A DNA stretch of 51,927 bases from Solirubrobacteraceae bacterium. GTDB lineage: Bacteria; Actinomycetota; Thermoleophilia; Solirubrobacterales; Solirubrobacteraceae. The notes below the pieces were generated by a model. It ran no database searches, had not been told where the DNA came from, and was given only the letters and a program-made list of their open reading frames with translations. This document shows positions 670-16,634 of the stretch, piece by piece (within the stretch, counting starts at the first letter, position 1; every line of letters begins with the position of its first letter). The stretch is from assembly GCA_030690545.1 (NCBI GenBank), contig JAUYGN010000100.1, forward strand, positions 1-51,927, given 5' to 3'. The translations under genes and the position numbers were made by a program.

Positions 670-1472
670 CGCAGCCACGCGGCGACGTCCCGTCCGTGCG
701 CTGCGCGCGCCGACGGGTCCAGCCGCTGGTTCGTCGTCTCGATCTGCAACTCGGTCCAGTGGTCGAGCTCGCTGCCTGCGCGCTCCCCGAGCTCGTCGCA
801 GATGTGCCCCCAGTGCAGCGCGACGCAGGCTCCCTCCCGCAGCGGGCCGGTGAACGCTCCCCGCGCGGAGCGCCACGTCACCTCCTCGTCGGCCGGCTCG
901 GCCAGTTCGAGCTGGCGACCATCCCACGTCAGCGCGCGAGCGCGCACGAGCACCAGCTCGGGGCGCACTTCGAGCACCTCCGCCGACCGGATCCGGCACG
1001 AGTCGAGCACGTGCAGCGGCTCGTCGCGTCCGGTCGCGAGCAGACGGGTCCACGGATAGACGCCGAAGACGTGGAAGGCATGCGTCGGCGTCACCTCGTC
1101 GAGCAGCCCGGGCGTGAGGTGCGACCAGTAGTGGCCGGCCTGCGAGGCGAAGCGCTCGAGCAGCAGCTCGCCGAGCTGGCGACCGTTGATCTCGCGCGTG
1201 AGCGCGTTGCCGGTCCAGTAGGCGCGCACGACGCGCTCGTCGAGCGGGTCGGCGATGCCGGCCAGGTCAGCGATCAGGCACTGGTACGGCCAGGCGCCGC
1301 TGAAGCGCGCCGCGAGCGACGGCACGTCGACCCCGGCTCCGTGCCCGCAGGCGACCGCCTCCAGGCCGGCGCCCGCGACCGCGGGCGGCCCGCAATAGCC
1401 GCGCGCGTTGGGCGCGCACGCGTAGCGGGCGAACAGGCGGTGGCCGCGCGGCTGCGAGATCGCGCCGCTCAC
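666..1472 (-). CDS. DUF6390-like hydrogenase-operon protein
   Basis: This 268-aa protein begins at a GTG whose GTGA overlaps the hypC stop, and ends in an ATGA overlap with the sigma factor. It contains the pattern [17 protein letters not shown] near the N-terminus and a Cys/His-containing stretch (GHGAGVD) shortly after. No signal peptide or membrane segment is visible. It resembles the DUF6390 family, which I recall next to actinobacterial hydrogenases; that family name is from memory. The molecular function is unknown. The position after hypC suggests a maturation or accessory role for the [NiFe] enzyme. The flanking genes HypC and sigma are both coupled to it by 4-nt overlaps. Confidence 0.7.
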
Positions 1473-1759
1473 GGCGCGGGCCGGTCGATCCAGTCGGCGG
1501 GCACGACGAGCGGCTCGTCGCCTTCGGGCCCGAGCAGCCCGACGTCGCGCATCAGCGCGGTCGTCCTGGCCGCCTCGTCGGGATCGAGCTTCGTCAGCGC
1601 GAAGCCCGCGTGCACGATCGTGAAGTCCCCGACCTGCAGGTCGGGGAGGTAGTTCAGCCGCACCGTGCGCAGCTCGCCGGCGAAGTCTGCCTCGGCGAGG
1701 ATCGCCCCGTCGTCCTGCACCCAGCGGCGGACGATTCGCCCGGGGATGCCGAGGCACAT
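1469..1759 (-). CDS. hypC: HypC/HybG-family hydrogenase maturation chaperone
   Basis: This 96-aa protein starts MCLGIPG, the signature N-terminus of HypC. After removal of Met the exposed Cys2 binds the Fe(CN)2CO precursor together with HypD and presents it to the large subunit. The rest (AEADFAGELRTVRLNYLPDL, VGDFTIVHAGFAL) matches the small beta-barrel of the family, with a slightly long C-terminal tail. The ATG lies 2 nt after the stop of the NHL-repeat gene, and the gene ends in a GTGA overlap with the next one. HypD, HypE and HypF are not visible in the window and would be expected elsewhere, possibly just left of it. Confidence 0.95.
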   Translation of the reverse strand: MCLGIPGRIVRRWVQDDGAILAEADFAGELRTVRLNYLPDLQVGDFTIVHAGFALTKLDPDEAARTTALMRDVGLLGPEGDEPLVVPADWIDRPAP

Positions 1760-1761
1760 CG

Positions 1762-2970
1762 TCAGCGCCCGCCCGCCGCGGCCGCATCCCACAGCACGAT
1801 GCGGTTGTTGCCCGAGTCGGCGATCGCCAGCTCGTCGCCCCAGCGCGCCAGGCCATACGGCCAGCACAGCGTGTCGGCGGCGATCCGCTCCCAGCGGTTC
1901 TCGCCGGCGGCAGCGAGATCCGGCTGCGCGAGCACGGCGGCGGGGGCGGTCGCCGCGGTCGGGACCTCGTCCCACAGCAGCACCCTGTTGTTCGCCGTGT
2001 CGGCGACCGCGAGGCCGGGGCCGCTCGCGACGGCGTACGGGAAGCGCAGCCGTCCCTCCTGGGAGACGTACGGAAACTCGACCGCGGTATGCAGGTCCGG
2101 CTGGCCGAGCACGCCGTCGGCCGGCCGATCGGCGCGCGGATGCGCGTCCCAGCGCAGCAGCCGGTGATTGCCGGCGTCGGCGACGACGATGCCGCCGTCG
2201 CCGGTGCCGGCGATCGCGTGCGGCCAGCGAAACGAGTCCGGCCCGACCGCGCCGCCGCGGTTCTCCGAGCGGCTGCGCGCGTCGGGCTGGCCGAGCACGA
2301 CGTCGGCGCCGCGACCGTCGAGCGGGATGCCGTCGCTCCAGGCGAGGATCCGCCGGTTGCCGGTGTCGCAGACGTAGAAGCGCCCGTCGACGACCGCGAC
2401 CCCGAACGGCCAGTAGAACGTCGTCGCGGTCGCGTCTGCACCCGCGTTGGGCTCGACGGCGTGCGGGCCGGGCTGGCCGAGGACGTGGTCGGGCGCCGTG
2501 CCGGTGCGCTGCGGCACGCGATCCCAGACGAGGATCCGGTGGTGCCAGGCGTCGCTGACGACGAGCCGGCCGTCGTCGACGAGCACGCCCGTCGGCAGGA
2601 ACATGCCGTTGCCGGGACCCGCGCCGCCGGCCGCCGGGCCCTCGCTGTTCGCGTCGGGCTGACCGAGCACGACGTCGGCGGGCGCCCCGTCGCGATCGGG
2701 CCGGCCGTGCCAGATCAGCACGCGGTGGTTGCCGGTGTCGCTTGCGATCAGCCGCTCGTCGTCGAGCCACACGCCGCGCGGCGCGTACAGCGCGGACGCC
2801 GTCGGCTTCGCGTCGGGCAGCAGCAGCCCGCCCGACGACCTCGCCCCGAGGATCGTCCGCGGCCGCCATGGGCCGTACGTCGCCGGCACCGGACCGGCGC
2901 CTGCGCCCGCACCGGCGCCGGTCACGATGCCGACGTGGGGAGCCGACTCGGTGATCACCTGGACGCGCAC
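1762..2970 (-). CDS. NHL-repeat beta-propeller protein of the hydrogenase operon
   Basis: The 402-aa product has about six NHL-type repeats with recurring units such as SDTGNHRVLIW, SDAWHHRILVW, CDTGNRRILAW, ADAGNHRLLRW, ADTANNRVLLW and ADSGNNRIVLW, alternating with DVVLGQPD-like turns. This predicts a six-bladed propeller. A Gly/Ala-rich linker (about residues 18-28) precedes it. There is no recognisable export signal, so it is probably cytoplasmic or membrane-associated through partners. It starts at GTG right after the NifU-Rieske stop. NHL propellers usually act as scaffolds or binding platforms. Its exact role here is unknown; the conserved setting suggests docking or assembly of the hydrogenase complex. 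Confidence 0.85.
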   Translation of the reverse strand: MRVQVITESAPHVGIVTGAGAGAGAGPVPATYGPWRPRTILGARSSGGLLLPDAKPTASALYAPRGVWLDDERLIASDTGNHRVLIWHGRPDRDGAPADVVLGQPDANSEGPAAGGAGPGNGMFLPTGVLVDDGRLVVSDAWHHRILVWDRVPQRTGTAPDHVLGQPGPHAVEPNAGADATATTFYWPFGVAVVDGRFYVCDTGNRRILAWSDGIPLDGRGADVVLGQPDARSRSENRGGAVGPDSFRWPHAIAGTGDGGIVVADAGNHRLLRWDAHPRADRPADGVLGQPDLHTAVEFPYVSQEGRLRFPYAVASGPGLAVADTANNRVLLWDEVPTAATAPAAVLAQPDLAAAGENRWERIAADTLCWPYGLARWGDELAIADSGNNRIVLWDAAAAGGR

Positions 2971-2971
2971 G

Positions 2972-4033
2972 TCAGGAGGTGGCGCGCACCCAGACGTGCC
3001 CGTCCTCGATGCGCAGCGGCAGCTGCTCGAGCTGCGCGCCGGGCATCGTCAGGCATTCGCCGTTCGTCGAGTCGAAGCAGAACCCGTGCCAGGGGCAGGT
3101 CAGCGTGCCCTCGGTCGCGTCGACGATCGCGTTGTCGAGCGGCAGGCCCTGATGCGCGCAGGCGTTGACGTAGGCCGCCATCTGGCCCGCGGCGTTGACG
3201 ACGACCACCTCGACGGCCTCGCCGGAGGCGGGGGTCAGCGACATCGCCTCGAGCGTGCCGACCGCGATGCGCTCGGTCGGGAACGTCTGAAACCAGCCCG
3301 CCTCGGCCATCGCCGCGGCGCCCGTCGAGCCGCTGGCCGCCGCGCTGCCGCCGGCCTCGGCGTCGCCACCGACCTGCGTGATCTGCAGCAGTTGCTCACC
3401 GGCGGGCTCGTTGGGCAGCACCTCGACCGCGGTCACCGACGGGACGCCCTCGACGAGCGCCTTCTCGACGCCGTCGCGCATCGTCACGCTCGCCATCGAG
3501 CAGCCGTTGCAGGCGCCCGACAGCCGCACGTAGGCGACCCCGTCCTCGATCCGCGCAAGCTCGACGTCGCCGCCGTGGGACCTGATTCCGGGACGGATCG
3601 TCTCGAGCACCTGCTCGGCGACCGCCATCGGGTCCGACGAGCGGATGATGCCGTGCATGAGCAGCACCATCCGCACGGAGGGGTCGTCGACGAGCTCGAA
3701 CAGCAGCTCCTTGCCGCGCGGGTCGGCGCGCAGCGCGCGCACGATCGTCGTCAGGCCGGCCCTGTGCAGCGCGTTGAGCGCGTCGAGGCTGTCGTCGAGG
3801 ATCTCGCGCGGGCGCGGGTCGAGCTCCTCAGCCCGGGCGCGAGCGGCGTCGAGCTCGGTCGCGAGCCGCTCGAGGTCGACCGCGTCGGGCGCGGGGGCCT
3901 GCGCGCCCTTCGCCGGCGCCGGTGCCGGCGCCGGCGCCGGCTCGGACGAGTGCGCGGGCACGATCGTCGCGACCGGCGGCGGCGTCGGTGCCGGCGCGGG
4001 CGCCATCGGCAGGGATACCGGGGTCTTGCTCAT
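2972..4033 (-). CDS. NifU-like/Rieske [Fe-S] fusion protein (HhyE/HucE-like)
   Basis: This 353-aa protein has three parts. A Pro/Ala-rich N-terminus (about residues 9-50) is followed by a helical segment and a NifU C-terminal-type domain with Cys175-x2-Cys178 (SGACNGCSMAS). A C-terminal Rieske domain follows, with Cys292-x-His294 (CAHQGLPL) and Cys313-x2-His316 (CPWHGFCF), the ligand set for a [2Fe-2S] cluster. Mycobacterial uptake hydrogenase operons carry a comparable Fe-S protein (HucE/HhyE) needed for hydrogenase activity. By analogy it probably relays electrons from the hydrogenase to the quinone pool, or helps insert clusters. It sits between the 121-aa unknown and the NHL gene in one operon. 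Confidence 0.9.
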   Translation of the reverse strand: MSKTPVSLPMAPAPAPTPPPVATIVPAHSSEPAPAPAPAPAKGAQAPAPDAVDLERLATELDAARARAEELDPRPREILDDSLDALNALHRAGLTTIVRALRADPRGKELLFELVDDPSVRMVLLMHGIIRSSDPMAVAEQVLETIRPGIRSHGGDVELARIEDGVAYVRLSGACNGCSMASVTMRDGVEKALVEGVPSVTAVEVLPNEPAGEQLLQITQVGGDAEAGGSAAASGSTGAAAMAEAGWFQTFPTERIAVGTLEAMSLTPASGEAVEVVVVNAAGQMAAYVNACAHQGLPLDNAIVDATEGTLTCPWHGFCFDSTNGECLTMPGAQLEQLPLRIEDGHVWVRATS

Positions 4034-4043
4034 GCGTACCTCC

Positions 4044-4409
4044 TCATCCGTACACGCTCGCGCGCGACATCGACTCGAGCACCTTGCCGTGCAGCAGCTC
4101 GCCGAACGCGGACTTCGCGGCGTGCACGAGCAGCTCGCCGACGGTGCCCGACGCGTCGATCGTCAGCGGGCGGCGCTGCAGCGCGCAGAGCACGAACGCG
4201 GCGCCCTCGGCGTTGTCGAGGCACCAGTCGGCGAACACCGCGTCGACGAAGTCGTCGAGCCAGACGCCGTCGGCGTTGCGGTCGTCGCGCAGCGCGCGCA
4301 GCGCGTTCTCCTGGCCCGCGCAGCGCTGCACGATCCGCTCGATGAAGGACTCCGCGGCCTGCGCGAGCAGGAGCTCAAACTGCTGCTGCTGATGAAGGTC
4401 CACGATCAT
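4044..4409 (-). CDS. Unknown 121-aa hydrogenase-operon protein
   Basis: I do not recognise the family. The protein is mostly helical and acidic, with two Cys (WCLDN, FVLCALQRR) that do not form a metal motif. The longest reading starts at ATG 4409, but an AAGGGAG sequence directly abuts that codon. The in-frame GTG at 4403 has a better ribosome-site spacing of 6 nt and may be the true start. The 5' end overlaps the end of the TPR gene by 29-35 nt. It ends 10 nt before the NifU-Rieske ATG. Its constant strand and tight spacing place it in the hydrogenase operon; function unknown. Confidence 0.75.
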   Translation of the reverse strand: MIVDLHQQQQFELLLAQAAESFIERIVQRCAGQENALRALRDDRNADGVWLDDFVDAVFADWCLDNAEGAAFVLCALQRRPLTIDASGTVGELLVHAAKSAFGELLHGKVLESMSRASVYG

Positions 4410-5700
4410 CTCCCTTCGGTTGCGCGGCCTGCGCCCCGCGGACCCCGTCGACGCCGCCCATCGCCAGACGGCCGGCGGCCTGGTGACCCTCCTGCGGAAC
4501 CGACTGCTTGGCGATCTCGTCGAGCACCGAGCGCACGGTCAGCGCCGAGTCGTGATCGAGGTGCTCCTCGAACAGGAAGCGCGCCTCGTAGAGCTTCGCC
4601 TTCGCCTGGTCGAAGATGCCGAGATGGGCGAGCGCGTTGCCCTGGTTGGCGAGGACGCGCGCGCGGCCGAGCGGGTCGGCGTCGCGCCCGCGCACCGCGA
4701 GCACGTCCTCGTAGAGCTCGACGGCCTCGACGAGGTTGTCGCCCTGCTTGACGGACGGGGTGTAGATCAGCGCGTTGGCGAGATTGAGCGTCGTCGTCGC
4801 CCATTGCGCCGGGTGCTCGTCCTTCGTGAAGACCTGCAGCGCCGCGCGCATCGCCTGGATCGCGATGCCCATCCGCAGCGCGTCGGTCGCCTCGACCATC
4901 GGCGACGCGAGGTAGGCAGTCGCGAGGTTGACCTGCGCGCTCGCCCAGAGGTGCGGGGCGGAGCGCTCCGTGACGAGCTGCAGCGTCGTGTAGTAGTGGT
5001 GCATCGCCGGGCGCAGCGAGGCGCCCGCGGCGACGGCGTCCGCGTGCTCCAGCATGCCCAGCTGGTAGTGCAGCTCGGCCTTGCTGACGTCCAGGTCGGT
5101 GTCGGTCAGCGCGCGCGTCGCCATCAGCAGGTCGGCGCGTGCGACGTCATGGTCGAGGCCGTGCTCGTAGCCGACCGTGCCGGCGTTGCCGTGCAGCACC
5201 GCGGCCAGCGGCGGCGAGTCGCCCTCCGCGCGATCGGCGGCGCGGTGCAGCAGCGCCACCGCGTCGGCCGGGCGTCCGATCGAGAGCGCTTCGGTTGCCT
5301 GGGTGGCGAGGACGAGCGCGGCGACGACGTCGCAGACGGGGTCGCCGGCGACGAGCGCGGGCGGCGCCTCGCAGTCCCCGTTGGTGTAGCGCACGACGTC
5401 GACGAGCGGGGCGAGCTCGGGCGGGAGCCGGGCGGCGAGATGCGCCGGGTCGACGTAGTCGGTCCCGAGCAGGAAGCGGTTGTAGAGCGTGTACGGGTCG
5501 TCGGCGACGAGGACGGCCATCGCCGCCTCCACGTCGCCTCCGTGGGCGAACTCGTGCGCGCGCATCGCTGCCGGCCAGCGTTGGGGGAGCTTGCCGGCCA
5601 GCAGCGATGCGACGGTCTCGTCGACGGAGGGGTCGTCGACCTCGGGAACGAGCATGAATCCGGCGGGGAGCGCGAAGGCGCCGAGCGGCTGCGCGCGCAT
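4375..5700 (-). CDS. TPR-like helical repeat protein of the hydrogenase operon
   Basis: The 441-aa product is rich in helix-turn-helix repeats of TPR type, for example ALVLATQATEALSIGRPADA, NAGTVGYEHGLD, QVNLATAYLASP, TTLNLANALIY and ANQGNALAHLGIFDQAKAKL. TPR solenoids mediate protein-protein contacts. No signal peptide or catalytic motif is evident. The ATG at 5700 shares a base with the stop of the preceding frame, implying tight coupling. In this context it probably assembles hydrogenase subunits with the Fe-S or NHL partners. That role is inferred; the repeat type is visible in the sequence. Confidence 0.85.
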   Translation of the reverse strand: MRAQPLGAFALPAGFMLVPEVDDPSVDETVASLLAGKLPQRWPAAMRAHEFAHGGDVEAAMAVLVADDPYTLYNRFLLGTDYVDPAHLAARLPPELAPLVDVVRYTNGDCEAPPALVAGDPVCDVVAALVLATQATEALSIGRPADAVALLHRAADRAEGDSPPLAAVLHGNAGTVGYEHGLDHDVARADLLMATRALTDTDLDVSKAELHYQLGMLEHADAVAAGASLRPAMHHYYTTLQLVTERSAPHLWASAQVNLATAYLASPMVEATDALRMGIAIQAMRAALQVFTKDEHPAQWATTTLNLANALIYTPSVKQGDNLVEAVELYEDVLAVRGRDADPLGRARVLANQGNALAHLGIFDQAKAKLYEARFLFEEHLDHDSALTVRSVLDEIAKQSVPQEGHQAAGRLAMGGVDGVRGAQAAQPKGDDRGPSSAAAV

Positions 5701-6236
5701 CAGGGAGCTACCCGGGATGCAGGTCGCCGTCCGGCGGCGGGCGCCCGCGGCGGTGCGCCGCCCGCTGCACGAGCGATGCCGTGAGCAGCGCCTCGCGTTC
5801 GGTCCGGTGCGCCGACAGCCTGCGACGGGTGATCCCCTCCGGATCGATCAGCAGCAGGTAGACGACCCACTGCCGGCAGTCCTCGACGACCTCCGTCCGC
5901 AACGTGCTGCTCACCGCCCGCTCCCTCGCCGGGTCGCTCGCGCAGTGCGACGACGAGCGCACCGCGATCCTCGCGCCAGGTTACGCGAAAGCGGCCCGCA
6001 GGTGGGCGAAACGCGAGCACCTCGCTGATCAGCAGCGAGCGGTCGCCGGCGGCGTTGCGCTGCTTGAGGACGAGCCCGCCGTTCGCCTCGCTGCGCAGGG
6101 GGAGCAGGACGAGGTCGTCGTCCTCCACGACGGCGACGCAGACGCCCGCGGGGAAGTGGCGCTCGGCGAGCGCGCCGGACAGCCGCAGGTACCCATCCGC
6201 CGTGATCTCGCAGGACGTGTGCTCGTCGAGGCTCAT
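5700..6236 (-). CDS. Small hydrogenase-operon protein with suspect C-terminal frame
   Basis: The first ~105 residues read like a real protein (ITADGYLRLSGALAERHFPAG, LVLLPLRSEANGGLVL), probably a compact beta domain. The remainder of the 178-aa frame is Arg/Gly/Pro/Ala-rich and looks like a shadow of another frame. Exactly over that tail, the +1-shifted frame (5708-5914) looks protein-like. The gene may therefore really be about 105 aa plus a non-native tail, or a +1 frameshift may join the two. The ATG overlaps the protease stop as ATGA. No known family is recognised; the operon position suggests a hydrogenase accessory. Confidence 0.6.
   Translation of the reverse strand: MSLDEHTSCEITADGYLRLSGALAERHFPAGVCVAVVEDDDLVLLPLRSEANGGLVLKQRNAAGDRSLLISEVLAFRPPAGRFRVTWREDRGALVVALRERPGEGAGGEQHVADGGRRGLPAVGRLPAADRSGGDHPSQAVGAPDRTRGAAHGIARAAGGAPPRAPAAGRRPASRVAP
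5708..5914 (-). CDS. Small 68-aa ORF overlapping the preceding gene
   Basis: Starting at GTG 5914, this frame encodes a protein-like sequence (STLRTEVVEDCRQWVVYLLL, IDPEGITRRRLSAHRTEREA) and ends at TAG 5708-5710, 7 nt before the TPR start. A purine-rich GAGGGAG sequence about 7 nt upstream of the GTG could serve as ribosome site. It lies wholly inside the C-terminal half of the 178-aa frame, offset by +1. Either it is an independent small gene or it is the continuation of the upstream protein after a frameshift. No family is recognised. Confidence 0.55.
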   Translation of the reverse strand: MSSTLRTEVVEDCRQWVVYLLLIDPEGITRRRLSAHRTEREALLTASLVQRAAHRRGRPPPDGDLHPG

Positions 6237-6766
6237 GCGCGGTCACCGGCGGCCGAGCACTCGTCGAGCACGATCTCGACGACGCGCTCCATCCCGTAGC
6301 TGACCGCGGGCGTCAGCGGCTCGCCGAGCGCGGTCGACTCGACCTCGACGAGCAGGACGTCGACGCGCCGCGGCAGCTGCGGCCCGAGCAGCCACGTCGC
6401 GAGCGCCAGCGCATGGTCCCAGCGAAACGCGTGCGTGTGGATGCCCTCCAGCGGCGGCAGCTCGGCGAGCTCCTCGCCCGGCACGCGGAAGACCGAGCCC
6501 GGCGGCGCGCCGGTGCTCGCCGCGTCGATCAGGATGACGCGCCGCGCGCCGCGCATGTGAAACGCGACGTCCATTCCCGCGGTGCCGCCGTCGATCAGCC
6601 GGACGCCGTCGGGCACCCCGCGCGACCAGAGCGTCCTGATCGCGATCGGGCCGACGGCGTCATCGCCGCGCAGGAGATGCCCGCAACCGATCACGACGAC
6701 GTCGCAGGCCGGCGGCTGGAAGCCGTCGTCGAGCAGCTCGTGCGGTTGCATCGTCATCTCCGCCAT
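6233..6766 (-). CDS. [NiFe] hydrogenase maturation protease (HybD/HycI family, M52)
   Basis: The 177-aa product matches the peptidase M52 fold. It has the N-terminal GCGHLLRGDDAVGP motif with its acidic Ni ligand position, LIDGGTAGMDV with the second Asp, and GIHTHAF with the His ligand. These endopeptidases sense Ni in the large subunit and cut its C-terminal extension after the conserved DxCxxCxxH. The adjacent large subunit does carry a 19-residue extension after that His. The gene follows the large subunit by 12 nt and is coupled to the next gene by ATGA, so it is very likely the dedicated protease of this enzyme. Confidence 0.95.
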   Translation of the reverse strand: MAEMTMQPHELLDDGFQPPACDVVVIGCGHLLRGDDAVGPIAIRTLWSRGVPDGVRLIDGGTAGMDVAFHMRGARRVILIDAASTGAPPGSVFRVPGEELAELPPLEGIHTHAFRWDHALALATWLLGPQLPRRVDVLLVEVESTALGEPLTPAVSYGMERVVEIVLDECSAAGDRA

Positions 6767-6778
6767 CGTGCTCGCCGG

Positions 6779-8386
6779 TCAGACCATCCCGTTGACGACG
6801 AACGTGCTGAGCTCGCGCCCGCTCTTGCCGTCGTAGGCGTGCACGGTACAGACGAGACAGGAGTCGAACGAGCGCGCGACGTGCCCGAGCTCGACGGGGT
6901 CGTCGACGTCGGCGATCGGCGTGCCGACGAGCGCCTGCTCGATCGGGCCCGGCGTCCCGTCGCTGTCGCGCGGGCCGATGTTCCACGCCGTCGGCGTGAT
7001 CACCTGGTAGTTCTCGATCTTGCCGTCCTCGAGCACGATCCAGTCCAGCAGCGCGCCGCGCGCGGCCTCGGTGGCGCCGAAGCCCTTGCCGGACTCGAGC
7101 TCCTCGGGCTTCGTGTAGAACGAGTCGTGCAGGTACAGCTGCGAGAGCCACTGCTTCGTCCACTGGAAGTACTTCGGCGCCTCGTGGAGGCGGGCCATCT
7201 GGCGCACGAAGACCGACGGCCCGAGCTTGTCGAGCATGTCGACGAAGAGCGGGTCGTGATCCTGATGCGCCGCCCCGGCCGGAGCGCCGGCAGCCACGCG
7301 GCGCGCCAGCGGCCCGGCCTCGAGCGGCATGTGCCCGGAGCCGGGAACGTCGTACCGCGGCGACTTGGCCCACGAGTACTTGCCGCTCCCGCGACCGATC
7401 TGCGGGTCGATGGGGTCCGTCTCGCCTTCCCACGGATGCAGCCTGCGGGTACCGGTGAAGTAGCTGTGGCTGACGTCCTCCGCGATCCGCATGTGGTCGA
7501 AGTCGTGCCAGCGCCCGTCGGCGTAGACGCCGGAGCGGCCGATCAGCGCGCCGTTGCGGGCCTCGATCGTCGGGTTCTCGTACAGCGAGGGCTCGAAGTA
7601 CGTCCCCGACGCGATGTAGTTGCCGCAGCCGCCGCCGTACTCGTGCAGGCCGATGTCGAGCGCGTAGCGGATGAAGAAGCCGCAGTCGGAGTTGTACTGC
7701 GACTCGTTCTCCTCGACCCATTCCTGCATGTCGGCCCAGGTCTTGATCTCCATCCAGCGCTCGATCGAGCAGCCGAGCCACTGCTTCTCGAGCCAGTGGT
7801 TCTTCCAGTGGTCGAGAATCGCGGTCGACCGGGTGACGTCGGCGAGGTTGGGCCCGCACATCACGCCGCCGGGCACCATGAACGACGAGTGCGGCCACTG
7901 CCCGCCGAAGATCGCGTAGACCTCGACCGGCTTGGCGGACAGCACGACCCCCGTCTGATAGGACGTGCCGACGTACGGCGCGAAGCGGCGCACCGCCTCG
8001 TCGTAGAGCGGCGAGTGGGCGTAGTTCTTGTTCACGAGGTCGATCGCGAACAGCGCGTAGAAGTAGCGCGGGATCGACTGCAGCGTCTCGCACGCCTGCG
8101 CGATGTTGCGGATCAGCGTCCCGTTGGGCGGGACGTGCGTCTTCCACGCCGTGTCGAGCGCGTAACAGGCCTTGTAGAGGTGGCTGCCCCCGCAGATGCC
8201 GCAGATGCGAGGGGTCACGATCAGGCCGGCCTGCGGATCCTTGCCCTTGAGGATGATCTCGAAGCCGCGGAACATCGCAGCCTCGGTCCAGGCCGACGTG
8301 ACGACGCCGTCCTCGATGGTGACGCGAACGTCGAGATCGCCCTCGACCCGGCCGAGGGGACTGACGAAGAGGTCAAGTGCTGTCAT
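6779..8386 (-). CDS. hhyL: [NiFe] hydrogenase large subunit (group 1h-like)
   Basis: The 535-aa subunit carries the NiFe active site. The L1 motif RICGICGGSHLYKACY supplies Cys62 and Cys65, and the L2 motif DSCLVCTVH supplies Cys510, Cys513 and His516. Ser replaces the Pro of the usual DPCxxC. After His516 there are 19 residues (ending VVNGMV) that the M52 protease should remove. The motifs and gene context fit the actinobacterial high-affinity group 1h enzymes that oxidise trace H2 during persistence. The start MTALDLFVSPLGRVEGD agrees with the family N-terminus. It follows the small subunit by 37 nt. The subgroup call is from motif and context, not from a tree. Confidence 0.96.
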   Translation of the reverse strand: MTALDLFVSPLGRVEGDLDVRVTIEDGVVTSAWTEAAMFRGFEIILKGKDPQAGLIVTPRICGICGGSHLYKACYALDTAWKTHVPPNGTLIRNIAQACETLQSIPRYFYALFAIDLVNKNYAHSPLYDEAVRRFAPYVGTSYQTGVVLSAKPVEVYAIFGGQWPHSSFMVPGGVMCGPNLADVTRSTAILDHWKNHWLEKQWLGCSIERWMEIKTWADMQEWVEENESQYNSDCGFFIRYALDIGLHEYGGGCGNYIASGTYFEPSLYENPTIEARNGALIGRSGVYADGRWHDFDHMRIAEDVSHSYFTGTRRLHPWEGETDPIDPQIGRGSGKYSWAKSPRYDVPGSGHMPLEAGPLARRVAAGAPAGAAHQDHDPLFVDMLDKLGPSVFVRQMARLHEAPKYFQWTKQWLSQLYLHDSFYTKPEELESGKGFGATEAARGALLDWIVLEDGKIENYQVITPTAWNIGPRDSDGTPGPIEQALVGTPIADVDDPVELGHVARSFDSCLVCTVHAYDGKSGRELSTFVVNGMV

Positions 8387-8423: not shown

Positions 8424-9404
8424 TCAGACGACGAACATGTCTTCCTTGGACCACTGCGGCGCGGCGATCCGCGCAGCGGCCGCGTGTGCCATGTAGCTGA
8501 GGTGATCGGCTCCCTCGGGGATCTCCTTCGGGATCGTGCCGGCGACCTTCTGGGTCTTGAAGACCGTGCCCGGCGCGAGGTCGAAGAACGGGAACTCGGG
8601 CTCGGTGCAGCCGGTGCACGGCATGCCGGCGCGCGTCTTGCTCGACTGCCGGTTCCACAGGATGCGGTTGCACGGTGAGTGCGTCATCGGCCCGCGGCAC
8701 CCGTACTCGTAGAACAGGCATCCGCTGCGCGTGCCCTCGCCGAAGGAGGTCGTCGACTGCTTGTACTCGAAGAACTGGACGCGCGTGCAGCCGGTCTGCG
8801 TGAACGTCTTGAAGAACGTCTGCGGCCGGTGCAGGTCGTCGAGCGCGATGTCGCCGGCACGCCCGGTCGCCAGCGCGACGAGGATCTGCGTGATCCAGTC
8901 GGGATGCGCCGGACAACCAGGGATGTTGATGACGGGCAGGCTCGACCGCGAGCGCCAGTCGGGACCGAGGAAGCCGCCGCGCTCGCGCTTGTGGAACTGC
9001 AGGCCCGTCGAGTCCGACGGGTTGGGCTCCATCGCGGGGATGCCGCCCCAGCAGGCGCAGTCGCCGATCGCGACGACGATCTGCGCCGCCGCGGCGAGCT
9101 CGTTGATCCAGTCGATCATCGGCCGGTCGGCGAACATGTCGTAGCGGCCCGACTTGTCCGGCGCCTGGATGACGGTCCCCTCGAGCACGAAGATGTCCAG
9201 GTTGCGCCGGCCTTCCGCACAGTCGGTGAAGATCTTCTTGGCGTTCTCGCCCAGCTCGAGCCCGAGCGACGGGTGCCAGAGCAGATCGAGCCCGAAGTCG
9301 ACGATCAGGTCGACGACGTTGGGCTCCTCGGCGTTGAGGAACGACATCGTGTTGCCGGAGCAAGCTCCTGCCTGAAACCAGAGCACTGATGCCATCGCAC
9401 GCAT
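8424..9404 (-). CDS. hhyS: [NiFe] hydrogenase small subunit (group 1h-like)
   Basis: This 326-aa subunit carries three Fe-S clusters. Proximal ligands visible are Cys15, Cys116 and Cys164 (CSGN, GDCACWGG, PGCP). The fourth position, normally Cys and reported as Asp in a characterised group 1h enzyme, is Asn18 here. Medial ligands are Cys245, Cys263 and Cys266. At the distal site Cys206, Cys229 and Cys236 are present, but the usual His (H-x2-C) is Gln203. No twin-arginine signal is present, unlike membrane-bound group 1 enzymes. The second in-frame ATG (9395) sits 11 nt after AGGAGG and may be the true start; the first ATG is only 2 nt from it. Confidence 0.95.
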   Translation of the reverse strand: MRAMASVLWFQAGACSGNTMSFLNAEEPNVVDLIVDFGLDLLWHPSLGLELGENAKKIFTDCAEGRRNLDIFVLEGTVIQAPDKSGRYDMFADRPMIDWINELAAAAQIVVAIGDCACWGGIPAMEPNPSDSTGLQFHKRERGGFLGPDWRSRSSLPVINIPGCPAHPDWITQILVALATGRAGDIALDDLHRPQTFFKTFTQTGCTRVQFFEYKQSTTSFGEGTRSGCLFYEYGCRGPMTHSPCNRILWNRQSSKTRAGMPCTGCTEPEFPFFDLAPGTVFKTQKVAGTIPKEIPEGADHLSYMAHAAAARIAAPQWSKEDMFVV

Positions 9405-9766
9405 TCCCTCCTGCTCGTGAACAATCGACTGGCCCCTGCGACCTTCGGGTACGGCAAGCTGGCGACCTACGCGAGAGCGCGTGAATCACCAGCGTCCACC
9501 TACGACAAGGCGAGCACGGACAACGACCCGGGTCGCGGTCAGCGCACCGACGAGCGCGCTCATCGAGCGGTCATCCGATCGTCGGCCGCTTCGTCGGCTG
9601 CCGGCCCCGTGCGCTTGTGCGGCGCCCCTCCATGTGGTAGCACGGCGAGCATAGGTCGGTGCCAGCTGGTGCGCAATAGCGCAAAGCGCAGCGACTGCTC
9701 CGATTACGCAACAATCGTTGCTCTGGAGCGCAGCCGCGCTGTCGGCGGGCGCTTTGCAGCAATGCG
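9405..9766 (+). promoter_or_regulatory. Divergent control region between hydrogenase operon and araC-hypAB
   Basis: No gene is supported in these 362 nt. The octamer AACAATCG occurs at both ends (9420-9427 and 9710-9717). The second copy is part of an interrupted palindrome GCAAC-N4-GTTGC (9708-9721). A run of GCGCAA-type direct repeats lies at 9671-9690. Both sets are plausible operator sites for the adjacent AraC regulator or another factor. AGGAGG upstream of the small subunit (about 9406-9411) is its ribosome site. Confidence 0.5.
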
Positions 9767-10825
9767 ATGTCGCGCCTCTCGTTCCTCCGATTCATCAACA
9801 CCGAGCGGACCCGCATGCCGGTGCGCAAGCGCCTGCGGTCGCGGGGCGTGCCGACGGCGCTGCAGGGTCACGAGGTGCTGTGCACGCACGACCGGGGCGA
9901 GGCGACCGAGGCGGTGTCCGCGATGCTCGGGACCGCCGTCCTGAGCGTCGGCCCGACCGCACGCGAGGAGTTTCAGGCGACGCTCAACGCGATCCGCTTC
10001 CTCGACGTCACGATGGCCTACCTCGATCTACGGGCACCGACACGGCTGGCGGTCGAGCGCGCAGCCGCCGTCTTCACCGTTCACATGATGACCCACGACG
10101 TCGCTGCGGCGGTCGTCGACGGCGAGCAGCACGAGCTGAGCGCGTTCTCGGCGCTCGTCAACAACCCCGGCGAGCGCTACGCGATCGAGCTCGGCGCCGA
10201 CTGCCCGCAGCTGATCATCCGGATCGAGCGGCCCGCGGTCGAGCGCCAGCTCTCGCGCATGCTCGGGCGCAGCCTCGAGGGCCCGATCGCGTTCGAGCGC
10301 ACGGCGGACCTGACGGGCGACGAGGCGGTTCGCTGGCACGGCGCGATCCAGCTGCTCTCCAGCGAGGTGATCTCGCCGTCCTCGCTGATCCAGCAGGGGC
10401 TCGGGGCGGCGTCGCTGGAGGAGCTGATCGTGTCAACCTTGCTCTATGTCCAGCCGTCGAACTACTCCGACCGCCTCCGGCATGCCCATGCGACGAGCGG
10501 GCGCGCGGCGGTGCGCCGCTCGCTGGCGTACATCGACGAGCACCTCGCCGAGACGATCTCGATGAGCGACCTGGCCCGCCATGCGTGCGTCAGCGTGCGG
10601 TCGATCCAAGCCGGCTTTCGCGAGGACCTCGGCACGACGCCGGTCGCGTACATCCGCGACCGGCGCCTCGACAAGGTGCGCCACGCCCTCATGGAGGCGA
10701 TGCCGACCGACGGCGTCACGGTTGCCGGCATCGCCGAGCGCTGGGGCTTCTCCAACGCGGGGAGCTTCTCGGTGCGCTACCGCGAGCGCTTCGGCGAGTC
10801 GCCGTCGCAGACGTTGAGGCGGTGA
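9767..10825 (+). CDS. AraC-family transcriptional regulator, hydrogenase-linked
   Basis: The 352-aa reading has an AraC-binding-like N-terminal domain and a C-terminal double helix-turn-helix (about residues 250-350; ISMSDLARHACVSVRSIQAG and VAGIAERWGFSNAGSFSVRY). It lies between the hydrogenase operon, which diverges from it, and hypA, which follows after 3 nt, so it probably controls both. The start is uncertain: the first ATG gives an unusual Arg-rich leader, and Met17 (9815) is a good alternative. The effector is unknown. Confidence 0.88.
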   Translation: MSRLSFLRFINTERTRMPVRKRLRSRGVPTALQGHEVLCTHDRGEATEAVSAMLGTAVLSVGPTAREEFQATLNAIRFLDVTMAYLDLRAPTRLAVERAAAVFTVHMMTHDVAAAVVDGEQHELSAFSALVNNPGERYAIELGADCPQLIIRIERPAVERQLSRMLGRSLEGPIAFERTADLTGDEAVRWHGAIQLLSSEVISPSSLIQQGLGAASLEELIVSTLLYVQPSNYSDRLRHAHATSGRAAVRRSLAYIDEHLAETISMSDLARHACVSVRSIQAGFREDLGTTPVAYIRDRRLDKVRHALMEAMPTDGVTVAGIAERWGFSNAGSFSVRYRERFGESPSQTLRR

Positions 10826-10828
10826 GCG

Positions 10829-11224
10829 ATGCACGAGCTCTCGCTGTGCCGGAGCATCTTCACGATCGCCGATCGGGCCCGCGAGGGACGGCCGGTCGAG
10901 ATCATCCACCTGCAGGTCGGGCAGCTGCGCCAGGTGGTTCCGCGGACGCTCGAGTACTGCTGGGGACTGGTGACCGAGCAAACCGAGCTGCACGGCAGCC
11001 GGCTCGACATCGATCACATCGAGGTGCGGTTGCGGTGCGAGGCGTGCAGCGCCACAATGCCCGTCGCCGACAGCCTCGTGCTGGCGTGCTCGGCGTGCGG
11101 CAGCGGCGACGTCACCGTGACGCAGGGCGAGGAGTTCATGTTGACCTCGATCGATCTGGGAGGGCGCGGCGATGGGCAGGTTCCACCGGCACGAGGACGG
11201 CACGGCGCACGATCACGGTCATGA
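10829..11224 (+). CDS. hypA: HypA hydrogenase nickel-insertion protein
   Basis: The sequence starts MHELSLC, where His2 is the conserved Ni ligand. The zinc loop has Cys70-x2-Cys73 and Cys87-x2-Cys90 (CEACSATM, CSACGSGD). HypA delivers Ni to the hydrogenase large subunit with HypB. The core ends at about residue 112. The last ~19 residues (Arg/Gly-rich) are an extension produced by reading into the hypB start, a 53-nt overlap. The start follows the araC stop by 3 nt, so araC-hypA-hypB is an operon. Confidence 0.95.
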   Translation: MHELSLCRSIFTIADRAREGRPVEIIHLQVGQLRQVVPRTLEYCWGLVTEQTELHGSRLDIDHIEVRLRCEACSATMPVADSLVLACSACGSGDVTVTQGEEFMLTSIDLGGRGDGQVPPARGRHGARSRS

Positions 11225-11987
11225 CCACGCGCATGGTCATGAGCATGACCACGCGCATCGGCACGACCACGACCTCGGCGACCACTCGGGCTACGACACG
11301 GGGCCGCAGCGAGTCAGCGTGCTCGAGCACATCTTCGGCGAGAACGACGACGCCGCGGATGCCAACCGCGCCGCGCTCTGCGCCGCGGGCGTCGTCTGCC
11401 TCAACGTCATGTCCTCGCCCGGCGCCGGCAAGACGGCGCTGCTCGAACGCACCTTGAGTCACCTTCAGGGGAGCGTCCGCGCAGGCGTGATCCAGGGCGA
11501 CATCGAGACGAGCCTCGATGCCGACCGCCTCGCGGGCCTCGGCGCGCAGATCTCGCTGCTGAACACCGCCAACGGGTTCGGCGGCGAATGCCACCTCGAC
11601 GCACCGATGGTCGCCAACGCCCTCGGGCGGATCGATCTCGACGCGCTCGAGCTGCTCTTCGTGGAGAACGTCGGCAACCTCGTATGCCCCGCCGAGTTCG
11701 ACGTCGGCGCCCACCATCGGGTCATGGTCTGCTCGATCACGGAGGGCGAGGACAAGCCGCTGAAGTACCCGGTGATGTTCCGCGCCGTGGAGCTCGTGCT
11801 CGTCAACAAGATCGACCTCCTCCCGCACCTCGACTTCGATCTCGCGCTGCTGGAGGCCAACCTGCGGACGATCAACCCGCACGCCACCGTGCTGAAGGTC
11901 AGCACGCGCACCGAGCACGGCCTCGACGACTGGTACGCGTGGCTGCGCGCGCGGCTCGCCGAGGAGCCGGTCGCGGCGCTCCGCTGA
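11172..11987 (+). CDS. hypB: HypB Ni-binding GTPase, His-rich N-terminus
   Basis: The 271-aa protein has a metal-storage tail (residues 5-39) with about 13 His interleaved with Asp/Gly (HDHGHDHAHGHEHDHAHRHD). A SIMIBI GTPase domain follows, with P-loop SSPGAGKT, the switch motif QGDIETSLDADR, ENVGNLVCP and the base-recognition NKIDLL. It hydrolyses GTP to load Ni through HypA. The overlap with hypA is 53 nt. The His-rich tail suggests nickel storage as well as insertion. Confidence 0.96.
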   Translation: MGRFHRHEDGTAHDHGHDHAHGHEHDHAHRHDHDLGDHSGYDTGPQRVSVLEHIFGENDDAADANRAALCAAGVVCLNVMSSPGAGKTALLERTLSHLQGSVRAGVIQGDIETSLDADRLAGLGAQISLLNTANGFGGECHLDAPMVANALGRIDLDALELLFVENVGNLVCPAEFDVGAHHRVMVCSITEGEDKPLKYPVMFRAVELVLVNKIDLLPHLDFDLALLEANLRTINPHATVLKVSTRTEHGLDDWYAWLRARLAEEPVAALR

Positions 11988-12023
11988 CGCCGATCTAGGA
12001 CACGTATGGGCCGCGATCCCGGC

Positions 12024-12029
12024 TAGCCT
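12024..12029 (+). promoter_or_regulatory. -10 hexamer TAGCCT for leaderless lhr
   Basis: TAGCCT lies 6 nt before the GTG of lhr, the arrangement expected of a leaderless transcript in actinobacteria. No ribosome site is present. Confidence 0.55.
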
Positions 12030-12035
12030 GGACGC

Positions 12036-15000
12036 GTGGCGCTCGAGCAGTTCACCCCCGCCGTTCGCGACTGGTTCACGGCGGCGTTCGAGCGGCCGAC
12101 CGCGGTGCAGGAGCAGGCCTGGCCGGCGATCGCGACCGGCGAGCACGTGCTCATCTCGGCGCCGACGGGATCGGGCAAGACGCTGGCGGCGTTCCTGTGG
12201 GCGCTCGACCGGCTCGGCCGCGCGCCGGCCGGCGCTGCCGACGCGCCGCGCGGCACGCGGCTCGTCTACGTCTCGCCGCTGAAGGCGCTCGCCTACGACA
12301 TCGATCGCAACCTGCGCGCGCCGCTGCGCGGGATCGGCGCCGACCTCGGCGTCGGCGTGCGGACCGGCGACACGCCGCAGCGCGAGCGCGCGGCGATGCG
12401 GCGCACCCCGCCCGACATCCTCATCACGACGCCGGAGTCGCTGTACCTGCTGCTGTCCAGCGGCGCGCGCGAGATGCTGACCGGCGTCGAGGCCGTGATC
12501 GTCGACGAGATCCACGCCGTCGCGGCGACGAAGCGCGGGGCGCACCTCGCGCTGACGCTCGAACGGCTCGCCGCGATTCAGGACCCCGCCCACCCCGGCC
12601 ATGATCCGCAGCGGATCGGGCTCTCCGCGACGCAGAACCCGCTCGAGGAAGTCGGCCGCTTCATGGTCGGCCCGCGACGGACCTGCACGATCGTCGACGC
12701 CGGCATCCGCAAGCCGCTGGACCTGCGGATCCACGTGCCGGTCGAGTCGATGACCGAGCCCGACCAGGCTCCGGGTGGGCGGGATCGGGTCGATCCGCTC
12801 GATCCGCTCGACCCGCTCGCCGGAGGCGAGGCGACGCGGCGCTCGATCTGGCCGGCGATCTACCCCGAGATCCTGCGGCTCGTGCAGGAGCACCGCTCGA
12901 CGATCGTCTTCGTCAACGCGCGCCGCGCCGCCGAGCGGCTCGCGCTACGCCTCAACGAGCTCGCGAACGCGGACCTGCCGGACGACGCGCCCCACGTGGA
13001 GATCGCGCGCGCCCACCACGGCTCGCTCGCGCGCGAGGAGCGGACCGTCGTCGAAGAGCTGCTGAAGGCCGGCGAGCTGCCCTGCCTCGTGGCGACCTCG
13101 TCGCTGGAGCTCGGCATCGACATGGGCGCCGTCGACCTCGTCCTGCAGGTCGAGTCGCCGAAGTCCGTCGCCCGCGGCCTGCAGCGCATCGGCCGCGCCG
13201 GCCACAACGTCGGCGACGTCTCGAAGGGCCGCGTCTTCCCGAAGTTCCGCGCCGACCTGCTCGAGTGCGCGGTCGTCTGCAAGCTCATGCGCTCAGGCGA
13301 GATCGAGCCGACCGTCGTGCCGCGCAACGCGCTCGACGTGCTCGCCCAGCACGTCGTCTCGATCGCGGCGAGCCGTGAGGAGGATGATCCGATCGCCGTC
13401 GACGAGCTCTTCGCGCTCGTCACGCGCACGCACTCCTACGCCGAGCTGTCGCGCCCGCTGCTGGAGAACGTGCTCGACATGCTCGACGGCCGCTACCCCT
13501 CCCAGGAGTTCGCCGAGCTGCGCGCGCGGATCGTCTGGGACCGCGTCGGCGGCACGATCCGCGCCCGCAAGGGCGCCCGCCAGCTCGCGATCACGAACGC
13601 CGGCACGATCCCCGACCGCGGCCTGTTCTCCGTCGTGCTGCCCGACGGCCGCCGGGTCGGCGAGCTCGACGAGGAGATGGTCTACGAGGCGCGCGCGGGC
13701 CAGACGTTCCTGCTCGGCGCCTCGACCTGGCGGATCGAGGAGATCGGCCGCGACCGCGTCGTCGTCACGCCGGCGCCGGGCGCGCCGGGCGCGGTCCCGT
13801 TCTGGAAGGGCGACTCCGTCGGGCGACCGATGCAGCTCGGCAGGGCGATCGGCGCCTTCAGCCGCTGGGCGGTCGAGCAGGACGCCGAGACGCTGCAGGC
13901 CGACTACGACCTCGACGCCTTCGCGGCGGGCAACCTGCTCGACTTCCTGCGCGAGCAGCAGGCCGCGACGCGCGTGCTCCCCTCCGACCGGACGATCGTC
14001 GTCGAGCGCTTCCGCGACGAGATCGGCGACTGGCGACTGTGCGTGCTGTCGCCGTACGGCGGGCGCGTCCACGCCGCCTGGGGCCTCGCGCTGAGCCGCC
14101 GGATCCGCGAGCGCTACGGCCTGGAGTCCGACGCGATCTGGTCCGACGACGGGATCATCGTCCACCTGCCCGACGCCGACGAGCCGCCGGGCGCGGAGCT
14201 CGTCCTCGTCGAGCCCGACGAGGTCCAGGAGGCGGTCGTCGCCGAGCTCGCCTCCTCCGCCCTGTTCGGCGCGCGCTTCCGCGAGAACGCCGGCCGCGCA
14301 CTGCTCATCCCGCGCGCGTACCCCGGCAGGCGCACGCCGCTGTGGCAGCAGCGGCTGAAGGCGCAATCGCTGCTCGAGGTCGCCAAGCGCTACCCCGACT
14401 TCCCGATCATCCTCGAGACCTACCGCGAGTGCCTGCGCGACGTGCTCGACGTCCCCGGCCTCGAGGAGCTGCTGCGCGGGCTGCACGCGCGCGAGCTGTC
14501 GTTGGTGGAGGTCGAGACGCCGACGGCGTCGCCGTTCGCCTCGTCGCTGCTGTTCGACTACGTCGCGACGTACATGTACGAGGGCGACCAGCCGAACGCC
14601 GAGCGGCGCGCCGCGGCGTTGTCGCTCGACCGCGAGCTGCTGCGCGAGCTGCTCGGCCAGGAGGAGCTGCGCGAGCTGATCGACGAGGACGCTCTGGACA
14701 TGGTCGAGGCGGACCTCCAGCACCGTTCGGACCGCACGCGCGCCGAGACGCGCGACGCGCTGCACGACGTCCTGCGCCGCGTCGGCGACCTCACCGTCGA
14801 CGAGGTCCACGACCGCGTGCTCGCCGGGATCGACGCCGACGCGATGCTCGCGACGCTGCGCGACGAGCGCCGCGCGATCGTCCTGCGGATCGGTGGCGAG
14901 CAGCGCTGGGTCGCCGCCGACGACGCCGGCCTGTACCGCGACGCGCTCGGCGCCGTCCCGCCCGGCGGGCTGCCCGACGCGTTCACGGCCGACGTCCCCG

Positions 15001-16634
15001 ACGCGCTCTCCAGGCTCGTCGCACGCTACGCGCGCACGCACGCGCCGTTCACGACGGCGCAGCTGCGGGCGCGCTACCAAGGAGGTCGCGGAAACGACAG
15101 AGTGAGCGACCTCCAAGTAGGAGGTCGCGGAGACAGCAGAATGAGCGACCTCCAAGCAGGAGGTCGCGGAAGCAACAGCGTGAGCGACCTTGGCGTCGAT
15201 CCGATGGCGGCGCTCGAGGCACTCGAGCGCGACGGCGGGATCGTCCGCGGCGAGCTGCACCCGCGCGGCCGGCCCGGCGAGCCGGAGTGGTGCGACACCG
15301 AGGTCCTGCGGCGACTGCGCCGCGCGTCGCTCGCCGCGCTGCGCAAGGAGATCGAGCCTGCCGACCAGCGCGCGCTCGCCACGTTCCTGCCGTCGTGGCA
15401 GGGCGTCGACCGCCATTCCGCCGCCGGCGCAGGGATCGACCGCCTGCGCGAGGTGCTCGTGCCGCTGCAGGGCCTCCCGCTGCCCGCGGAGGTCTGGGAG
15501 CGCGACGTCCTGCCACGGCGTCTCGGGGCGTACTCGCCGACGTGGCTCGACCAGCTCTGCGCGAGCGGCGAGCTCGTCTGGGTCGGCGCCGGCACGCTCG
15601 GCCGGACCACCGGACGCGTCGCGCTGTACTTCCGCGACGACGCCGAGGCGATCGGGCGGCCGGCGCCCCCGCGCGGCGGCGCGCCCGTCGCGCCAGCGCA
15701 GGCCGAGCACGAGCTGATCCGCGAGCGGCTGACCGCGTCGCCGTGCTTCTTCACCGACCTGCTCGCCGACGTCGCGCTCGAGGCCGAGCAGGTGCAGGAG
15801 GCGCTCTGGGACCTCGTCTGGGCGGGCGAGGTGACCAACGACGCGTTCGCGCCGCTGCGCGCGCCGCGCCTGACGCTCGCCCGCGCGCGCCAGTCCAGCG
15901 CCGGGCGCCACGGCACGGCCCGCCGCTTCGGCAGCACCCGCCGCGGCGGCACCGGCGCGACCGTCCAAGGCCGCTGGGCGCTGACCGACACGATCTTCCG
16001 CCGCGGGGCGGGTGGGACCGATTCAGCCGCCCGCCGCCGCACGCAGGCCGAGCTGCTGCTCGAGCGCTACGGCATCGTCACCCGCGAGCAGGTCCTCGCC
16101 GAAGGGGTCGCCGGCGGCTTCGCGATCCTCTACGAGGCGCTGTCGCAGCTCGAGACGCTCGGCGTCTGCCGCCGCGGCTACTTCGTCGAGGGCCTCGGCG
16201 GCGCGCAGTTCGCGCTGCCCGGCGCCGTCGAGCGCCTGCGCGCGCAGCGCGACGTCGAGGAGTCCGCGCCGCTCGTGCTCGCCGCGACCGACCCGGCCCA
16301 GCCCTACGGCGCCGCGCTGCCGTGGCCGAGGCGCGACGAGCAGGGCGCGCGCAGGCCCGCGCGCGTGCGTGGGGCCTATGTCGTGCTGGCCGGCGCCGAG
16401 CCCGTGCTCTACGTCGAGAAGGGCGGCCGCGGGATCGCGACGCTCGTCGCGCACGACGACCCGCGGCTGCGCCCGTCGTTCGGCGCGCTCGCGCGGTTCA
16501 TCACCGGAGGGCGCGGGCGCAAGCTGTCGCTCGAGCGCCTCGACGGCGAGCCCGTCGTCGGCTCCCCGCTGGAGGCGCTGCTGATCGAGCTCGGCTTCCG
16601 CGCCGGGCCCCGCAAGCTCACCCTCAGCGCCTGA
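12036..16634 (+). CDS. lhr: Lhr-type ATP-dependent DNA helicase, with in-frame triple repeat
   Basis: The 1532-aa length and layout match full-size actinobacterial Lhr, a superfamily 2 helicase involved in DNA repair. Motif I is APTGSGKT (residues 42-49), motif II is DEIH, motif III is SATQ and motif VI is QRIGRAGH. The winged-helix and Lhr-core parts follow, with the large C-terminal domain to about residue 1530. Residues 1016-1054 are three 13-residue repeats (GGRGNDRVSDLQV and variants) encoded by a hairpin-forming 39-bp unit that looks inserted. The GTG start is 6 nt behind TAGCCT. It stands alone, with the toxin-antitoxin pair converging on its end. Confidence 0.95.
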   Translation: MALEQFTPAVRDWFTAAFERPTAVQEQAWPAIATGEHVLISAPTGSGKTLAAFLWALDRLGRAPAGAADAPRGTRLVYVSPLKALAYDIDRNLRAPLRGIGADLGVGVRTGDTPQRERAAMRRTPPDILITTPESLYLLLSSGAREMLTGVEAVIVDEIHAVAATKRGAHLALTLERLAAIQDPAHPGHDPQRIGLSATQNPLEEVGRFMVGPRRTCTIVDAGIRKPLDLRIHVPVESMTEPDQAPGGRDRVDPLDPLDPLAGGEATRRSIWPAIYPEILRLVQEHRSTIVFVNARRAAERLALRLNELANADLPDDAPHVEIARAHHGSLAREERTVVEELLKAGELPCLVATSSLELGIDMGAVDLVLQVESPKSVARGLQRIGRAGHNVGDVSKGRVFPKFRADLLECAVVCKLMRSGEIEPTVVPRNALDVLAQHVVSIAASREEDDPIAVDELFALVTRTHSYAELSRPLLENVLDMLDGRYPSQEFAELRARIVWDRVGGTIRARKGARQLAITNAGTIPDRGLFSVVLPDGRRVGELDEEMVYEARAGQTFLLGASTWRIEEIGRDRVVVTPAPGAPGAVPFWKGDSVGRPMQLGRAIGAFSRWAVEQDAETLQADYDLDAFAAGNLLDFLREQQAATRVLPSDRTIVVERFRDEIGDWRLCVLSPYGGRVHAAWGLALSRRIRERYGLESDAIWSDDGIIVHLPDADEPPGAELVLVEPDEVQEAVVAELASSALFGARFRENAGRALLIPRAYPGRRTPLWQQRLKAQSLLEVAKRYPDFPIILETYRECLRDVLDVPGLEELLRGLHARELSLVEVETPTASPFASSLLFDYVATYMYEGDQPNAERRAAALSLDRELLRELLGQEELRELIDEDALDMVEADLQHRSDRTRAETRDALHDVLRRVGDLTVDEVHDRVLAGIDADAMLATLRDERRAIVLRIGGEQRWVAADDAGLYRDALGAVPPGGLPDAFTADVPDALSRLVARYARTHAPFTTAQLRARYQGGRGNDRVSDLQVGGRGDSRMSDLQAGGRGSNSVSDLGVDPMAALEALERDGGIVRGELHPRGRPGEPEWCDTEVLRRLRRASLAALRKEIEPADQRALATFLPSWQGVDRHSAAGAGIDRLREVLVPLQGLPLPAEVWERDVLPRRLGAYSPTWLDQLCASGELVWVGAGTLGRTTGRVALYFRDDAEAIGRPAPPRGGAPVAPAQAEHELIRERLTASPCFFTDLLADVALEAEQVQEALWDLVWAGEVTNDAFAPLRAPRLTLARARQSSAGRHGTARRFGSTRRGGTGATVQGRWALTDTIFRRGAGGTDSAARRRTQAELLLERYGIVTREQVLAEGVAGGFAILYEALSQLETLGVCRRGYFVEGLGGAQFALPGAVERLRAQRDVEESAPLVLAATDPAQPYGAALPWPRRDEQGARRPARVRGAYVVLAGAEPVLYVEKGGRGIATLVAHDDPRLRPSFGALARFITGGRGRKLSLERLDGEPVVGSPLEALLIELGFRAGPRKLTLSA
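15081..15197 (+). repeat. Three tandem 39-bp units, each with an inverted repeat, inside lhr
   Basis: Units lie at 15081-15119, 15120-15158 and 15159-15197. Units 1 and 2 begin GGAGGTCGC and contain GCGACCTCC 19-20 nt further on, forming a 9-bp-stem hairpin. Unit 3 keeps the first arm and a partly diverged second arm (GCGACCTTG). The period is a multiple of three, so the lhr frame stays open. Confidence 0.92.

Follow-up and report, generated by a model that had tools for sequence, protein, structure and literature searches.

A Huc-type group 2a [NiFe]-hydrogenase gene cluster of a Solirubrobacteraceae bacterium with family-typical Asn and Gln at two iron-sulfur cluster positions and no detected stalk gene

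Results

Small subunit gene hucS and its neighborhood

The window, that is, the whole stretch of 51,927 nucleotides analyzed in this work, carries on its minus strand hucS (8424..9404), which encodes a group 2a [NiFe]-hydrogenase small subunit of 326 aa containing the Pfam domains Oxidored_q6 and NiFe_hyd_SSU_C. Its translation is MRAMASVLWFQAGACSGNTMSF...FKTFTQTGCTRV. Residues 5-326 of this protein align to the small subunits of Mycobacterium smegmatis Huc (7uur/7utd) without a single gap over 322 residues, with a score of 669.6 bits to 7uur_D, the runner-up PDB family scoring about 125 bits. The real start of HucS is probably Met4 (9393-9395), since the solved Huc protein starts with ASVLWFQ; residue numbers would then be 3 lower than those used here.

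The original prediction had drawn attention to an Asn at the second position of the proximal Cys-x2-Cys motif and to Gln203 in place of the distal-cluster His, and both were confirmed from the codons and by alignment with other small subunits. Asn18 (codon AAC, 9351..9353, minus strand) closes the CSGN motif that begins with Cys15, and Gln203 (codon CAG, 8796..8798, minus strand) opens the QTGC motif ahead of Cys206, the interval 8796-9362 spanning exactly Cys15 through Gln203. When aligned with HofK, HoxB, and MBH, Asn18 pairs with the second of the two Cys residues in the proximal CxxC, and Gln203 with the distal His, and it is these two residues rather than others that occupy the ligand positions. 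The corresponding motifs are CDGD...VHDGC in the group 1h protein HofK, CGGC...VHHGC in the regulatory HoxB, and CTCC...IHDKC in the MBH small subunit.

Further huc genes are found on the minus strand. The large subunit gene hucL (6779..8386; Pfam PF00374) retains both Ni-binding CxxC motifs, ICGIC and SCLVC, and there is a hucD-like hydrogenase maturation protease gene (6233..6766; PF01750, with TIGR00072 above cut-off). Three genes were assigned by their conserved position, namely, one for a hypothetical protein of 178 aa that has no family match and is partly conserved in relatives (5700..6236), one for a TPR-type protein of 441 aa, syntenic with tetratricopeptide-annotated genes of Sulfobacillus and Thermus (4375..5700), and one for a hypothetical protein of 121 aa that is 71% identical to a protein in the same place in locus L003 (4044..4409). 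These are accompanied by genes for a NifU-like and Rieske-type protein (2972..4033; synteny and family scan), an NHL-repeat protein (1762..2970; synteny, with an NHL repeat annotated in L086-L089), and a HypC-like chaperone, whose start, MCLGIPGR, was read directly from the ORF (1469..1759). On the plus strand, the divergent gene of an AraC-family regulator (9767..10825; Pfam AraC_binding_2 and HTH_18), whose place is conserved in relatives, is followed by hypA (10829..11224; PF01155) and hypB (11172..11987; TIGR00073 above cut-off). The maturation protease, TPR, NifU, NHL, AraC, HypA, and HypB genes are neighbors that this locus has in common with mycobacterial huc loci. Between hucS and araC lies a gap of 362 bp (9405..9766), the site of hucM in relatives, in which neither hucM nor a remnant of it was found.

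Distribution of the Asn/Gln pattern

The solved Huc chain (7uur) has identical Asn and Gln residues at both sites. All 80 relatives fetched from genome_contigs (82-92% identical) have kept the Asn, the Gln, and all nine cluster Cys residues, so that the pattern is no accident, and the Asn/Gln pair also occurs in five plasmid copies, from Sulfobacillus, Thermus, Mesorhizobium, Octadecabacter, and Runella, that are 60-70% identical to HucS. The alignment check that had been proposed to recognize a family trait thus came out in its favor. In a wider set of 129 different small subunits, the residues at the two sites were N/Q in 90, D/H in 18, C/H in 13, N/H in 3, E/R in 3, and D/R in 2. From these sequence comparisons, Asn18 and Gln203 are a trait of the Huc family, already known and explained, and not a new deviation. 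As a repeat of a solved family trait, the residues themselves are of little significance, but the N/Q pair is a cheap sequence marker that tells Huc from the D/H of group 1h.

Gln203 is almost, though not wholly, fixed in Huc and, as judged from the sequences, is not an absolute requirement of the family, because a Huc-type protein nested in the Huc clade and 79% identical to HucS (L139; G342:C1:1730355-1731329) has His there (CSGN...VHNGC). The genome of this Q203H variant has hucM, and its N/H sequence offers a natural distal-site variant for comparison. The proximal Asn, in turn, is not restricted to Huc, since a Sulfurimonas paralvinellae plasmid (L093) encodes two different small subunits (2974-3879 and 5287-6522) with the motifs CNGN and CAGN, both with the distal His.

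Origin of the cluster and absence of hucM

Huc was absent from all 60 genus, family, and order relatives searched, in which the best matches were group 1h-like or other small subunits. The lhr gene next to the cluster has an identity of 88-90% to its counterparts in genus relatives, on which ground misbinning of the contig was rejected. In four relatives, the region upstream of lhr contains no huc genes. The window's huc cluster is most closely related to actinomycete loci and to L003, which, by the identical genome G242, comes from the same class. The simplest reading of these sequence data is that the huc cluster was acquired horizontally.

In M. smegmatis Huc, HucM acts as scaffold and quinone-conducting stalk, and a hucM deletion mutant retains Huc activity but fails to assemble the large oligomer, according to PMC10017518. 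This HucM (DUF1641) subunit of the HucSLM stalk complex was not found to be encoded here: hucM gave no match in a six-frame search of the window, a profile built from 17 HucM sequences retrieved nothing from the whole genome with E relaxed to 10, and no DUF1641 match above cut-off was obtained. The same profile produced a match in 11 of the 12 other whole Huc genomes tried (the genome of L003 being counted once per search), the sole miss being that of L064. Likewise, among the 79 relatives whose upstream region is covered, 78 carry a hucM of the DUF1641 type on the upstream side of hucS, L064 again being the exception; L026, whose locus is cut off, is left out of this count. At L064 (G447, approximately 7588-8000), too, the huc cluster has no hucM in the interval from araC to hucS, and the HucM profile gave no match in its genome. 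The distance between hucS and araC is 362 bp in the window, about 414 bp in L064, and at least 711 bp in the other relatives with an upstream AraC gene. The two stalk-less loci are not neighbors in a tree of concatenated HucS and HucL, and two independent absences of hucM are therefore suggested. No HucM match was obtained on the Octadecabacter, Mesorhizobium, and Runella plasmids, for which the search covered the plasmid records and HucM may be too divergent.

As for changes in HucS and HucL that might compensate for the missing stalk, in the window only 7 residues per subunit differ from the 93%-conserved consensus; nearly all of these differences are conservative and none indicates a lost interface. 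The corresponding comparison with L064 covered HucL. Relative to M. smegmatis Huc, the window's copy thus differs in having no hucM detected in its genome and in a slightly longer predicted N terminus. A literature search retrieved no report of a hucM-less Huc, which is not proof of absence.

That the missing gene reflects an assembly or binning artefact, with the living organism possessing a normal HucSLM complex, is unlikely. The genome consists of 149 contigs with a completeness of 98.58%, so that some 1-2% may be missing; however, a single contig carries both hucS and araC, separated by just the short gap, the lhr identity places this contig in the genus, and the unrelated locus L064 has a similarly short gap. 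If it works, the window's Huc is probably a scaffold-free HucS2L2 unit without HucM, by analogy with the M. smegmatis deletion mutant, whose Huc was active but not oligomeric (PMC10017518), and a working stalk-less Huc in this genome is plausible by the same analogy. For the fuller proposal of a natural, horizontally acquired Huc that is free of HucM, uses an electron route other than the HucM quinone tube, and has arisen by at least two losses (window and L064), belief and doubt are about equally divided. The missing stalk gene could be the one point here of possible specialist interest: if HucM is dispensable in nature, long-range menaquinone transport through the HucM tube, as in the published model, would not be the sole route by which Huc can supply respiration. 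An enzyme lacking the stalk, its distal clusters exposed, would then also lend itself to direct electrode wiring.

Discussion

Iron-sulfur clusters and the role of Asn18 and Gln203

The window's enzyme, as judged from its sequence, is a group 2a [NiFe]-hydrogenase, namely, Huc. It resembles the Huc of M. smegmatis (7uur, 7utd, 7uus, and 8dqv; PMC10017518) in the ungapped match, the same Asn and Gln, and the same cluster Cys residues. In PMC10017518, three [3Fe-4S] clusters are assigned to M. smegmatis Huc on the grounds of cryo-EM maps at 1.52 A, of the residue in fourth position at each cluster, and of EPR, which gave no signal of reduced [4Fe-4S]. The text seen names a "fourth coordinating residue" without numbering, and its identification as Asn or Gln follows from the sequence alignment. 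The same source places [3Fe-4S] clusters about 250 mV above [4Fe-4S] clusters and links them to a raised onset potential that favors the oxidation of atmospheric H2; the high H2 affinity of the M. smegmatis enzyme was shown there as well.

As deduced from the homologous M. smegmatis structure, Cys15, Cys116, and Cys164 of the window's protein would hold a proximal [3Fe-4S] cluster, Cys245, Cys263, and Cys266 a medial one, and Cys206, Cys229, and Cys236 a distal one. Asn18 and Gln203 stand at the places that, in the proximal and distal cubanes of other hydrogenases, are taken by the fourth ligand. The original prediction had spoken of unusual Fe-S ligands, a description that does not hold up well: because a [3Fe-4S] cluster needs only three Cys residues, Asn and Gln probably bind no iron, as the three [3Fe-4S] clusters of the orthologous Huc also suggest, and the two residues are most likely signs of fourth-iron sites left empty, not exotic ligands. 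A high-potential relay of this kind would draw electrons from H2 at trace pressure, making Huc an oxidizer and not a reversible enzyme. We infer the same clusters and the same role for the window's copy, and have high confidence in the explanation as a whole, that is, the hucS of a group 2a Huc in which Asn18 and Gln203 are family traits and the clusters are as in M. smegmatis Huc.

The proposal that an altered cluster type or potential bears on high-affinity H2 oxidation agrees with what PMC10017518 states for the Huc orthologue. The same proposal had offered oxygen tolerance as the other possible consequence; the link to affinity and potential stands, and that to O2 is weaker, as PMC10017518 puts the O2 insensitivity of Huc down mainly to narrow gas channels.

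It is improbable that Asn18 and/or Gln203 instead bind a fourth iron and so create [4Fe-4S] clusters that have N- or O-ligands and a changed potential. At the proximal site a ligand other than Cys is conceivable, given that the group 1h Asp ligates a [4Fe-4S] cluster at the equivalent position (PMC7174314), and the invariance of N18 across the Huc set shows that the side chain matters. Against this, density and EPR assign [3Fe-4S] to all three sites of the orthologous Huc, with the signal of reduced [4Fe-4S] missing (PMC10017518).

Relationship to group 1h hydrogenases

The original prediction had measured the Asn against a group 1h enzyme said to use Asp at this site. What it said of that enzyme is borne out, since HofK has CDGD and PMC7174314 mentions an aspartate that coordinates the proximal cluster; the implied comparison fails. 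A tree built without the ligand columns was well supported and placed HucS in a starred Huc clade apart from group 1h; the tool warned that several long branches meet in this tree, and neither the window's HucS nor its Huc neighbors are among them. Of the group 1h features, HucS has no CxGD with a distal His, showing CSGN and Gln instead, and it falls outside the group 1h clade. That the window's enzyme belongs to group 1h (Hhy-type) and has newly exchanged Asp for Asn at its proximal cluster is virtually ruled out, even though group 1h also does without the second proximal Cys (CDGD in HofK and in the group 1h enzyme of the window's genome), by the ungapped 7uur match, the N/Q motif in place of D/H, the separate clade, an identity of 85-92% to Huc-type proteins as against 31% to HofK in local alignments, and the presence in the same genome, on contig C91, of a separate group 1h pair with CDGD and His. 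Since the Huc and group 1h sets separate in a tree made without the ligand columns, Asn in Huc and Asp in group 1h most likely replaced Cys independently.

HofK of the HofK/HofG hydrogenase of Cupriavidus necator H16 (group 1h; 5aa5) is thus like HucS in having a residue other than Cys at the second position of the proximal CxxC, but differs in that this is Asp and not Asn, in keeping the distal His, in sharing only about 31% identity, and in belonging to another clade. The group 2e hydrogenase Hys of Acidianus brierleyi is described in PMC11018855 as Huc-like, with a reported identity to Huc of about 45% and a HysM that resembles HucM.

Orphan small subunits and other hydrogenase neighborhoods

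The window's genome also encodes a group 1h-like small subunit with a proximal CDGE and an Arg at the position of the distal His (G000:C20, L150 13608-14690, minus strand, corresponding to L082 1333-2415). No large subunit gene is adjacent, and the only two clear [NiFe] large subunits of this genome belong to Huc and to the group 1h pair. Directly downstream lies a gene for a PAS-PAS-GGDEF-EAL protein and upstream one for an AAA ATPase (11391-13607 and 14827-15774, respectively, both on the minus strand). The pairing of such a small subunit with a PAS-GGDEF-EAL protein recurs, again with no adjacent large subunit, in at least four relatives (L099, L100, L103/L152, and L106), the orphan small subunits of which form one supported clade. 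A literature search retrieved no orphan small subunit/c-di-GMP sensor system; to judge from its gene neighborhood, this one could be a redox or gas sensor that controls c-di-GMP.

Another neighborhood that, by its sequence, combines a hydrogenase with c-di-GMP genes is found on an Ideonella dechloratans plasmid (L092 4001-8924), where a small subunit with CGGD and a distal His is followed by a large subunit, a protease, and a bifunctional diguanylate cyclase/phosphodiesterase. Finally, the group 1h HofK of C. necator (L084/L095, pHG1 59962-61017) is publicly annotated as "hydrogenase expression protein HypE," which is probably a mislabel.
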